From Sphingobacterium corticibacterium (GTDB lineage Bacteria > Bacteroidota > Bacteroidia > Sphingobacteriales > Sphingobacteriaceae), in the NCBI RefSeq assembly GCF_004208525.1, contig NZ_SGIT01000001.1, forward strand, positions 558,001 through 622,000: a DNA stretch of 64,000 nucleotides, read 5' to 3'. Positions 23,336-56,386 of the stretch are shown in pieces. Position numbers and translations under genes: made by a program. The notes beneath the pieces are model-generated. The model was given only the letters and a program-made list of their open reading frames with translations. It ran no database searches and was not told where the DNA came from. Numbering within the stretch: the stretch's first letter is position 1; every line of letters begins with the position of its first letter.

Positions 23336-24355
23336 ATGGCATTTAAAACATTAGGTCAATTTATTATTGAAAAGCAAGCTGATTTTCCTTATGCAAAAGG
23401 TGAACTTTCCCGATTGTTGCGAGACATCGGTATCGCAGCGAAGATTATTAATAGGGAGGTTAACAAAGCTGGGCTAGTGGATATTTTAGGCGAAAATGGT
23501 CATCACAATGTGCAGGGCGAAGCACAGAAAAAATTGGATGTATATGCCGATGAACAGTTTATTGAGGCATTGACTCGCGGTGGAGAATGCTGTTATATCG
23601 CTTCCGAAGAACATGAAGAATGTATCGAGGTATCGTTAAAAAACTTGACAAATAAAGGTAAGTACATGGTGTGTATGGATCCATTAGATGGATCTGCAAA
23701 CATTGATTTGAATGTCTCTGTTGGATCTATCTTTTCCATTTATCGAAGAAAGGTACTTGATGCACCGGTGTCTGAAGAGGAAATACTGCAATATGGTTAT
23801 GATCAAGTTGCTGCGGGGTATGTGATTTACGGTTCTTCTACGATGTTGGTTTATACAACAGGAAAAGGGGTAAATGGCTTTACATTGGATCCATCTATTG
23901 GAGAGTTCTGTTTATCGCACCCGGACATGCAAGTTCCTGTAGATGGAAATTCTTATTCGGTGAATGAAGGGAATTACTTGAAATTTCCGCAATACATCAA
24001 AGATTATATCAAATATTGTCAGGCAGAGGATAGCGCAACTTCAAGACCTTACACTTCCCGTTATATAGGATCGATGGTCGCTGATATTCACCGTACGCTG
24101 ATTATGGGAGGGGTGTTTTTATATCCCGAGACTTCCAGTTACCCCCATGGTAAATTACGGCTGCTTTACGAATGTAACCCCATGGCTTTTATTATAGAGC
24201 AAGCGGGAGGAAAAGCTGTCTCCGGTAAAGAAAGAGTTTTGGGTATTAAACCAACGCATTTGCATCAACGGACCCCGATTGTTATCGGAAGTAAAAATAT
24301 GGTAGATAAGGTGCTCAGTTTTGTGGAGAAAACTCAGGATAGTGCGGAGGCCTGA
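23336..24355 (+). CDS. fbp: Fructose-1,6-bisphosphatase class I
   Basis: A 339-residue enzyme hydrolysing fructose-1,6-bisphosphate to fructose-6-phosphate in gluconeogenesis. The metal- and phosphate-binding block [11 protein letters not shown] is at about residues 113-123, A-S-E-E-H-E-E precedes it, and the C-terminal substrate loop has [13 protein letters not shown]. The frame is open from 23294, but ATG 23336 gives the usual [10 protein letters not shown] start. The 3' end overlaps the convergent exonuclease gene by 22 bp. Confidence 0.96.
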
Positions 24356-25722
24356 GGCAAGGTAGTTACTTTTTGCGGATGACGATCTGCATATTGCAAG
24401 ACAATATGTTGCATATAAAAATTGCTGACGCATTTGTCGGTGTAAGAAACGACGTCTTCCACTTGGGACCATTGTTGGATAAACTCTATAAATCCGAAAG
24501 CGTAGAGTTTATCCTCTTTAAAATAAACATAGCTGTTTTCCGTTTCGTTCCGCCCTTGATCGATAAGAAGAAAGGAACGTTTTCGGTTGTCCAGTTGTTG
24601 AAATACGCCAGCGATCGTTTGATTGTGCTCCTCTCGAGAAGGGAGTACCCCTGCTGGTATTTTTCGATCCTCGCGTGTCTCCGTAGAAGGAGAGTAAAAT
24701 GTGCACAGTGTAGGGGCTAAGTTAAATTCTTCCAATAGATTGGCGAGAAACAAATTTGCTTCTTGTGCTGTTTCAAAATAACGGATACTGTTTGTATGGG
24801 TAGTTGCTTTGCTTACCGCTAGTCTGACGTAGCCTCTTATATCTTCATAATGGATAAGTGCAAATTTTGGTTCGTAGCGTTTCAATGCCTGGTTATGAAT
24901 AGGCCAATGCTTTTTAATCAGTTGACATTCCATAAGCAGGGCCATTAGTTCGGTACCCGACTCTTCAAAATCTATCGTCGCAATATCGTTTATAAATTGC
25001 TGTCTTCGTAGACTCGTATTAACACCTCCGAAGTGGCTTAGCACACGTTTTCGTATGTTGATAGCTTTTCCTACATAAATGATCTTTCCTTTTTTATTCC
25101 GGAAAATATATATCCCCGTGGTTTCCGGTAATCTCTGGAATTGTGCGAAGGAAAGATGGGTTGGTAAGCGATGTTCGATGTTCTTTTGCAAGCTCTCCTG
25201 CAAATATTGATTTTCATCGTGTGCAAGTAATTGGGAAAAGAGCTCGACAGTAGCTTCAGCATCGCCCATGGCCCGATGTCGTGCAGCAATATGGATGCCG
25301 CGCACTTTGCAGATATCTCCTAAGCTGTAGGAACGGTGGCCAGGAAATATCTTTCTGGAAAGCCGTACGGTACAGAGTTTTGATGCTTGCCACTCATAGC
25401 CTGCTTGCCGCAATTCTTTCACAAGAAATGAGTAGTCGAAATTTACATTATGAGCAACAAAAACTTTACCTTGTAAAAGATGATATATATCTTCTGCAAT
25501 TTCGTCGAAAATAGGTGCTTCTTCCACCATATCGGGTGTGATACCTGTCAGGGTCTGGATCGCAAACGGAATCGGAGATTGCGGATTTACAAGGCTTTGA
25601 TACCGTTCGATAACTTTCTTCCCGTTGTGTATCAAAATGGCCACTTCCGTAATACGACTCCCTCCAGCGTGACTCCCCGTGGTTTCAATATCGACTATAG
25701 CAAAGTGTTTTTGTTTATTCAC
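24334..25722 (-). CDS. DEDDh exonuclease fused to a GIY-YIG nuclease domain
   Basis: A 462-residue two-nuclease fusion. The N-terminal DnaQ-like 3'-5' exonuclease has [10 protein letters not shown] (D and E), H-N-V-N-F-D and H-R-A-M-G-D-A, completing D-E-D-D-h. A UvrC/Cho-like GIY-YIG domain begins near residue 202, with T-T-G-I-Y-I-F-R-N and [12 protein letters not shown]. The rest is an unassigned C-terminal region. Exonuclease-Cho-type fusions act in repair, cutting near lesions. The start is a GTG at 25722. An 11-bp-armed palindrome lies 5 bp upstream, like that at the XRE-S24 repressor promoter, suggesting damage-inducible control. Confidence 0.88.
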
Positions 25723-25727
25723 GTTGC

Positions 25728-25754
25728 AATATTACTAATTTAGTTAGTAATATT
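25728..25754. promoter_or_regulatory. Palindromic operator upstream of the exonuclease/GIY-YIG gene
   Basis: A perfect 27-bp inverted repeat: AATATTACTAA, 5-nt spacer, TTAGTAATATT. The left arm recurs identically at 55568-55578 with the TTACTAA-N5-TTAGTAA core, in the promoter of the LexA-like gene. It lies directly before the GTG start, where bound repressor would block expression. Confidence 0.7.
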
Positions 25755-55153: not shown

Positions 55154-55194
55154 AAAGGTCGTTGTTTATGATTTAAGCATAAACAACGACTTTT
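55154..55194. terminator. Bidirectional terminator
   Basis: A 13-bp stem (55158-55170 with 55178-55190), extended by AAA/TTT on both sides, serves both converging genes. The stop codon of the GIY-YIG gene is in the loop. Confidence 0.8.
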
Positions 55195-55502
55195 TTATGC
55201 TCTATTTTATCTCGATAAGCTGGAGAGATGTTAAGATTGAGCCAATTTGGGTTTTTTAGACGAATAAGTTTTTCCCGTTGCATCCGGGTAAAGTGGCGTA
55301 ATGTGTTGTGATACGAAAGTGCCATTTCTCTGCTTTCGAATAATTCCATATAAACTACATTACTTAGTTTCGGTGAACTGCCAAATAAAACGGAAGATGT
55401 GTGATGTATCTCCTGTAAGCGAGTAGGCATATCGGTGCAGTATCCAACTTCGAGATATGCGCGGTTGCTATTCGTGATAATATATACGATATGTGTTTCC
55501 AT
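55173..55502 (-). CDS. Degenerate GIY-YIG superfamily protein
   Basis: A 109-residue single-domain protein. T-H-I-V-Y-I-I-T-N-S-N at the start and Y-L-E-V-G-Y-C replace the usual Y-V-Y-I-L and Y-I-G-x-T. M-P-T-R-L-Q-E-I-H-H supplies the catalytic-type Arg, and L-F-E-S-R-E-M-A-L the Glu. The G-I-Y and Y-I-G triplets themselves are not intact, so nuclease activity is uncertain. It is divergent from the XRE-S24 repressor across 110 bp that contain a palindromic operator, which suggests regulation by that repressor. Confidence 0.75.
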   Translation of the reverse strand: METHIVYIITNSNRAYLEVGYCTDMPTRLQEIHHTSSVLFGSSPKLSNVVYMELFESREMALSYHNTLRHFTRMQREKLIRLKNPNWLNLNISPAYRDKIEHKKVVVYA

Positions 55503-55567
55503 GTTAATTAATCTTATGTACTAATAAATTTGGTTGTGTAAATATTAATTGCTAATTTTATTGGCAC

Positions 55568-55593
55568 AATATTACTAATTATTTTAGTAAATT
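55568..55593. promoter_or_regulatory. Palindromic operator at the XRE-S24 / GIY-YIG divergent promoter
   Basis: AATATTACTAA, a 5-nt spacer (TTATT), then TTAGTAAATT. The TTACTAA-N5-TTAGTAA core and the entire left arm match the site at 25728-25754. It lies 20 bp before the XRE-S24 ATG. A weaker TACTAAT half-site lies near 55519-55525, closer to the GIY-YIG start. Confidence 0.7.
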
Positions 55594-55612
55594 AAAATTT
55601 TTTAAGAAAAAT

Positions 55613-56386
55613 ATGTCAAATATCGCATCGAATCTTAAGTTTCTGAGAAAGAAAAAAGGCTTAACGCAACAGCAATTTGCTGATGCACTAGAAATAAAAA
55701 GGGCGTCTGTGGGCGCCTATGAAGAGGATCGGGCTGAACCGAAGTATGAGTTGCTAAGAAAAATAGCGCAGTTTTACGATCTTACGATGGACGAACTGGC
55801 GAATGACGTTATCGACGAAAAATGGCGACCTCAACCTAAAAGTAATGCCTCGAATTTGAGGGTGCTGAGTGTAACCGTAGACGGAAATGAGCGAGAGAAT
55901 ATTGAGTTGGTACCTGTTAAAGCCAGCGCAGGCTACCTAAATGGGTATGGAGATCCGGAATATGTAGCAGAGCTTCCTAAATTTTCACTGCCTATGTTCA
56001 ATCAAGGAACATACCGCGCATTCGAAATCAAAGGTGATTCCATGTTGCCACTGCCATCGGGAAGTATCATTATCGGAGAGTATATCGAAAACTGGCACGA
56101 TATCAAACCTAGCCAAACTTATGTGGTGGTTTCCAGAGAAGATGGCGTAGTATATAAGCGTGTAGCTTACAAATTTAAGGAAGATAAAGGTTTGAAACTT
56201 GTCTCAGATAATAAAACATATGAGCCCTATTGGGTAAGTACGGAAGATATTATAGAGGTCTGGAAAGCGAAAGCGTTTATTAGTACTGAGCTTCCAGAGC
56301 CAAGTCCGGAACCTACGATGGAAACATTGACGTCGATGATGGCACAAATGCAAAAAACGATTAAATCGGTAGTCAATAACAAATAA
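55613..56386 (+). CDS. LexA-like repressor (XRE HTH plus S24 self-cleaving peptidase)
   Basis: A 257-residue regulator. The XRE helix-turn-helix spans residues 5-60 (L-K-F-L-R-K-K-K-G-L-T-Q-Q-Q-F-A). The S24 domain has an Ala106-Gly107 bond (K-A-S-A-G-Y) in the position of the LexA cleavage site, nucleophile Ser143 in K-G-D-S-M-L-P, and Lys182 in V-V-Y-K-R-V, giving a 39-residue Ser-Lys spacing. RecA-stimulated autocleavage is therefore likely. A palindrome in its own promoter and before the exonuclease/GIY-YIG gene suggests an SOS-type role. It differs from classical LexA in its XRE N-terminus. Confidence 0.86.
   Translation: MSNIASNLKFLRKKKGLTQQQFADALEIKRASVGAYEEDRAEPKYELLRKIAQFYDLTMDELANDVIDEKWRPQPKSNASNLRVLSVTVDGNERENIELVPVKASAGYLNGYGDPEYVAELPKFSLPMFNQGTYRAFEIKGDSMLPLPSGSIIIGEYIENWHDIKPSQTYVVVSREDGVVYKRVAYKFKEDKGLKLVSDNKTYEPYWVSTEDIIEVWKAKAFISTELPEPSPEPTMETLTSMMAQMQKTIKSVVNNK

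Follow-up and report, generated by a model that had tools for sequence, protein, structure and literature searches.

For the XRE-S24 repressor encoded in a stretch of 64,000 nucleotides from Sphingobacterium corticibacterium (contig NZ_SGIT01000001.1, positions 558,001 to 622,000; in the following called the window), we are highly confident in this reading: it corresponds to the non-canonical LexA proteins of Bacteroidetes; the box CTAA-N5-TTAG precedes its own gene, recA, an exonuclease/GIY-YIG gene and a probable imuA-imuB operon, all of which it likely represses; and self-cleavage at Ala106-Gly107 is predicted to set in once DNA damage has led to RecA filaments. In this repressor, Sphingobacterium likely has its SOS master switch, and a map of conserved box positions comes with it. 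A preliminary description of this DNA had proposed an autoregulated, damage-responsive S24 repressor that has a further operator at a nuclease gene far away, and this is still the best reading of the sequences, whereas a regulon limited to GIY-YIG genes and the view of the neighboring gene as a second nuclease had to be given up. The features concerned are as follows:

55613..56386, forward strand: gene of the XRE-S24 repressor, 257 aa; HTH at residues 8-62, scissile bond predicted at Ala106-Gly107, catalytic dyad Ser143/Lys182, modeled C-terminal helix at 236-255
55572..55590, no strand: predicted operator 1, TTACTAATTATTTTAGTAA, with core CTAA-N5-TTAG at 55575-55587, between the repressor gene and the divergent gene
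25728..25754, no strand: predicted operator 2, perfect palindrome AATATTACTAA-N5-TTAGTAATATT, with core at 25735-25747
24334..25722, reverse strand: gene of the exonuclease, 462 aa; fusion protein with an RNase_T/DnaQ-like domain at residues 9-162 and a GIY-YIG domain at 203-272
55173..55502, reverse strand: gene of the divergent protein with a GIY-YIG fold, 109 aa; second Tyr replaced by Glu18, His by Ile32, catalytic Glu by His65, Arg28 kept

The repressor matched the Pfam models HTH_3 (PF01381, a CI-type HTH; 4.1e-14) and Peptidase_S24 (3e-6). Ala106-Gly107, Ser143, and Lys182 were found exactly at the positions given for them in the preliminary description and are all invariant in an alignment of 38 repressor sequences. 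In the structure model, which is of moderate quality (mean pLDDT 69.5, pTM 0.43; cleavage region below 50), residues 4-64 are helical without strand, and the extra C-terminal helix has a local pLDDT of about 61-73. Homologues were detected in all 36 genomes of the same genus, that of S. corticibacterium included, two of them being only 61% and 45% identical; the named relatives are from Sphingobacterium, with identities up to 99%. A search of the S. corticibacterium genome for further repressor matches at E ≤ 0.001 found no second one. The profile of canonical LexA (TIGR00498) also gave no match in this genome and none above cut-off in the 36 same-genus genomes, six of which showed matches below cut-off (best 1.9e-17). 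In the control genomes it matched in 9/14 and was above cut-off in 6/14. The repressor shares with canonical LexA the S24 self-cleavage residues and presumably the SOS role, but its HTH is XRE/CI-like, while that of canonical LexA is a winged HTH.

Scanning of the window located TTACTAA-N5-TTAGTAA with zero mismatches at 55572-55590 and 25732-25750. The motif in the repressor promoter and its left arm AATATTACTAA, which it had been said to share with the second site, were thereby verified; this left arm is all that 55568-55594 has in common with operator 2. Between the 19-bp core palindrome of operator 1 and the repressor ATG lie 22 bp. Operator 2, about 30 kb from the repressor locus, is the claimed perfect palindrome with 11-bp arms (27 bases) and ends 5 bp upstream of the GTG start of the exonuclease gene. 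The encoded protein has the DnaQ/GIY-YIG architecture of the COG0847 type (RNase_T 6.7e-34, GIY-YIG 5.3e-10).

The S. corticibacterium genome (5,119,506 bases in 11 contigs, 99.87% complete) was scanned for the exact motif TTACTAA-N5-TTAGTAA, as had been proposed, and contained exactly two copies, one before the repressor gene and one before the exonuclease/GIY-YIG gene. On the question whether the motif occurs at chance frequency, the exact form and the looser forms differed. The exact form was found in none of 100 dinucleotide shuffles of the window. With up to two mismatches, 46 sites in the genome stood against 70 for the reversed pattern, and TNCTAA-N5-TTAGNA gave 6 sites against 14 for its control, so that neither was enriched by count; within the window, up to three mismatches gave 8 sites compared to a shuffle mean of 6.3. 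Therefore, the motif carries information only where it stands at a conserved promoter position. Gene neighborhoods were inspected for ten of the 46 sites with up to two mismatches (two in the window, the recA start and seven others), and of the six TNCTAA-N5-TTAGNA sites, the three outside contig 4 were resolved. The one-mismatch sites C1:1454559 and C8:57307 were discarded as boxes, since their CTAA/TTAG core is broken and they overlap reading frames. Across 40 same-genus genomes, the 12-base form TACTAA-N5-TTAGTA reached a total of 194 compared to 78 for the reversed control. Control patterns with N4 or N6 spacing, reversed or everted, were absent from the promoter sets of repressor, exonuclease, recA, and dinB, the four sets for which they were run, and only 11 CTAA-N5-TTAG cores lay in the remaining 647,421 bp of the named loci. 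Chance palindromes as the source of the boxes were rejected because of the empty shuffles and the lack of control-pattern matches.

At conserved promoters, the box was found before the repressor gene in all 79 parsed named loci (80 fetched; L274 was not parsed) and in all 28 parsed loci of the same genus (30 fetched; L025 and L039 were missed by the start pattern). Before the exonuclease gene it was present in 25 of 30 loci, that of S. corticibacterium included, and absent in five; these 30 loci come from 46 matches and are all of the same genus. All 22 same-genus genomes, again with S. corticibacterium among them, carry the box 58-60 bp upstream of the recA ATG (14 genomes of other families were left out of this count). 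A near-box CTAA-N5-TGAG over the recA start codon was seen in 18/22 of these genomes, including S. corticibacterium (L290); it was set aside, since the intact box sits further upstream. Operons resembling imuAB showed the box in 16 of 21 cases, including that of S. corticibacterium, the set consisting of 21 weak IMS matches among 24 same-genus genomes. Their naming is based on the weak IMS match and the gene order, and the 245-aa 'imuA' has no Pfam match. Only 7 of 22 dinB-like genes had the box (distances counted from the IMS domain; a shift of about 47 bases applies to L144). There were only two Y-family (IMS) matches in S. corticibacterium, one in an imuB-like gene and one in a dinB-like gene, the latter without box. 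Species recur in several of these sets and are not independent of each other. From the sequences, the predicted regulon of S. corticibacterium comprises at least the repressor, the exonuclease, recA, and the imuAB-like operon. Because the box also precedes recA and the imuAB-like operon, an SOS regulon with recA is predicted instead of a two-gene GIY-YIG circuit. The small damage regulon proposed earlier, in which both targets carry a GIY-YIG fold, was accordingly rejected; moreover, the second GIY-YIG protein is very probably no nuclease (see below).

A non-canonical LexA of Bacteroidetes with the box CTAA-N5-TTAG was described by Sanchez-Osuna et al., NAR 2021 (PMC8565304). There, Sphingobacteriaceae are named as carriers of large regulons, and the predicted targets include a GIY-YIG exonuclease (COG0847), recA, and imuA-imuB-dnaE2. 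For the same motif in other species, binding by gel shift, dependence on the core by mutagenesis, and induction by mitomycin C are reported. The published family and the repressor have in common a CI-like HTH joined to S24, the Ala-Gly and Ser-Lys residues, the C-terminal helix, and CTAA-N5-TTAG in the own promoter, and the two regulons share a Sphingobacteriaceae host and boxes at recA, imuAB, and the GIY-YIG exonuclease. As S. corticibacterium thus combines the CI-type HTH, the S24 residues, the C-terminal helix, the own box, and boxes at SOS genes in a Bacteroidetes host without canonical LexA, membership of the repressor in the non-canonical LexA CTAA-N5-TTAG group is supported by comparison of published features. 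HdiR and UmuDAb, as described in PMC8565304, are likewise non-LexA S24 repressors of damage genes, but they have a minimal regulon and belong to other families.

A CI-like repressor left over from a decayed prophage would act on local genes only, and the second palindrome would be a coincidence. Such an origin would fit the lambda repressor (3bdn) as top Foldseek match of the model and the phage origin that is assumed for the published family in PMC8565304. It is nevertheless very improbable, given a homologue in every one of the 36 same-genus genomes and box positions conserved at unlinked repair genes with no control matches in the four promoter sets. We consider it similarly improbable that the boxes are mainly bound by another XRE protein, for example by the HTH-only proteins that have this box in common with it beside Y-family polymerase genes in relatives. 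Two such frames of 71-80 aa (L328:1175-1417 and L192:9515-9730) resemble the repressor HTH and lie opposite polymerase genes, with TACTAATATTTTTAGTA in between, in G031 and G013; lacking a peptidase domain, they would be unable to cleave themselves. These HTH-only proteins of relatives were matched by the same search at E ≤ 0.001 that left the repressor as the single match in S. corticibacterium, which argues against another XRE protein as the main ligand of the boxes.

The second GIY-YIG-type gene that was said to share operator 1 is indeed divergent from the repressor gene, and the operator lies between the two. By itself, the window copy had no significant Pfam or NCBIfam match. PF01541 was found at E ≤ 10 in 31 of 70 members of the divergent-protein family, with a best value of 3.4e-5 and only 0.1 for the window copy, and Foldseek with the structure model returned 1zg2 (1.2e-4) and Slx1 (from 0.021). 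Judged by its relatives and the model, the protein has a GIY-YIG fold. A relative lies beside the repressor gene on the opposite strand in 80/80 named loci, and when 81 genomes of the order, all from the same bacterial family, were sampled, 80 contained a member of the protein family, presence and not adjacency being counted. In 20 repressor neighborhoods at class level, the family profile had no match. Among 15 further loci, it matched one protein beside the 61%-identical orthologue in G001; a second match, in G009, lay at a distance of about 4 kb from a paralogue.

That this protein is still an active nuclease, and thereby a second SOS repair effector, would agree with its modeled fold, its relatives, and Arg28 of the window copy. 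However, the second Tyr, His, and catalytic Glu are each missing in all 81 divergent proteins and Arg is kept in only 10 of them, whereas all four residues are kept in 10/10 small GIY-YIG proteins of the same bacterial family (all comparison proteins used, with no motif filter on the frames). Nuclease activity is accordingly unlikely, and the candidate was rejected: by its sequence, the divergent protein is very probably not a nuclease, and the best reading is a partner that binds DNA or protein and does not cut. Asn13, Arg14, Arg81, Asn84, and Trp87 are invariant in the 70-sequence alignment. With UPF0213/small GIY-YIG proteins (1zg2), the protein shares the fold and the conserved Asn84 and Trp87; unlike them, it lacks the YIG Tyr, His, and catalytic Glu, and mostly also Arg.

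The mechanism of the repressor is of an already known kind, and its phylum-level version is in print (PMC8565304). The dead divergent partner is the element for which the literature searched, with most subscription journals outside its scope, provided no paper, and the consulted parts of PMC8565304 hold no mention of it. Tentatively, and with considerable doubt on our side, the LexA substitute of Sphingobacteriaceae could have a dedicated partner, a catalytically dead GIY-YIG domain encoded back to back with it at one operator and serving as non-cutting DNA-structure sensor or co-repressor that times the SOS switch. The conserved dead neighbor is the part worth following, as it bears on how a phage-like repressor runs the SOS response.

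Two putative -7 elements, the consensus of which we take to be TAnnTTTG, overlap with the operators:

55567..55574, reverse strand: divergent gene, TAATATTG as putative -7 element, with a TA that doubles as outer TA of the operator 1 arm
25727..25734, reverse strand: exonuclease gene, TAATATTG as putative -7 element; overlaps operator 2 and ends 4 nt before the GTG

On the side of the divergent gene, a sequence with one mismatch to TAnnTTTG occurs at the same position in 79/79 loci, with none perfect (counted without control). In 20 of the 25 boxed exonuclease promoters, a TAnnTTTG-like element has its TA in common with the outer end of the box (11 elements perfect, 9 with one mismatch; also without control). 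In several relatives, the gap between this element and the exonuclease start is 3-6 nt, similar to the 4 nt within 25720-25734 of the window, which suggests that the exonuclease mRNA may be leaderless. In the proposed mechanism, a repressor dimer on the box would block RNA polymerase. At the exonuclease gene and the divergent gene it would do so directly, because the box shares its outer TA with the -7-like element; the recA box sits further upstream than at these two genes. After DNA damage, RecA filaments on single-stranded DNA would trigger self-cleavage at Ala106-Gly107 by Ser143/Lys182, which we infer from the residues and the family. Cleavage would then release the regulon, and by means of the box at its own gene the repressor would reset itself. 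The catalytically dead GIY-YIG protein encoded next to it would likely be induced with the regulon; branched or damaged DNA may be its ligand, or it may act on the repressor as a modulator, in either case without cutting.

The five imuAB-like operons without box (G003, G009, G018, G023, and the contig-7 copy of G020) all have a second repressor homologue, divergent and about 0.9 kb from the imuB domain match, while a search at E ≤ 0.001 found no repressor match within 5 kb of the other 16. The exonuclease gene of G010, also box-free, faces a paralogous repressor as well. Another palindrome lies between the genes at G010 (TTGTTTC-N5-GAAACAA) and in four of the five box-free imuAB cases, where the arms are 8-9 bp long; G018 has only 7-bp arms. 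As the species are not independent, the coincidence of paralogue and lost box is given without a probability. Diverged palindromes of paralogues are described for Weeksellaceae in the consulted parts of PMC8565304; imuAB operons of Sphingobacterium that have lost the box and face a paralogous repressor are not mentioned in these parts. An imuAB operon that faces a paralogous repressor and has lost the standard box represents a natural experiment.

Further sites with an intact core were observed in S. corticibacterium. One (L159, 2086-2104; G000:C1:1271085) lies between frames of 236 aa and 113 aa, close to a Vsr mismatch endonuclease gene. At another (L160, 1917-1935; G000:C8:12916), an uncertain 236-aa frame follows 195 bp downstream, which has no Pfam match and whose sequence is reminiscent of the end of an HTH protein. 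A third (L005, 1501-1519; G000:C1:53205) is followed after 24 bp by a frame of 492 aa that opens with a signal-peptide-like stretch and is a possible further target of the regulon. In G016 and G021, long box-type palindromes (L329:1771, L330:1585, L331:4605) stand 10 bp before repeated 155-aa frames.
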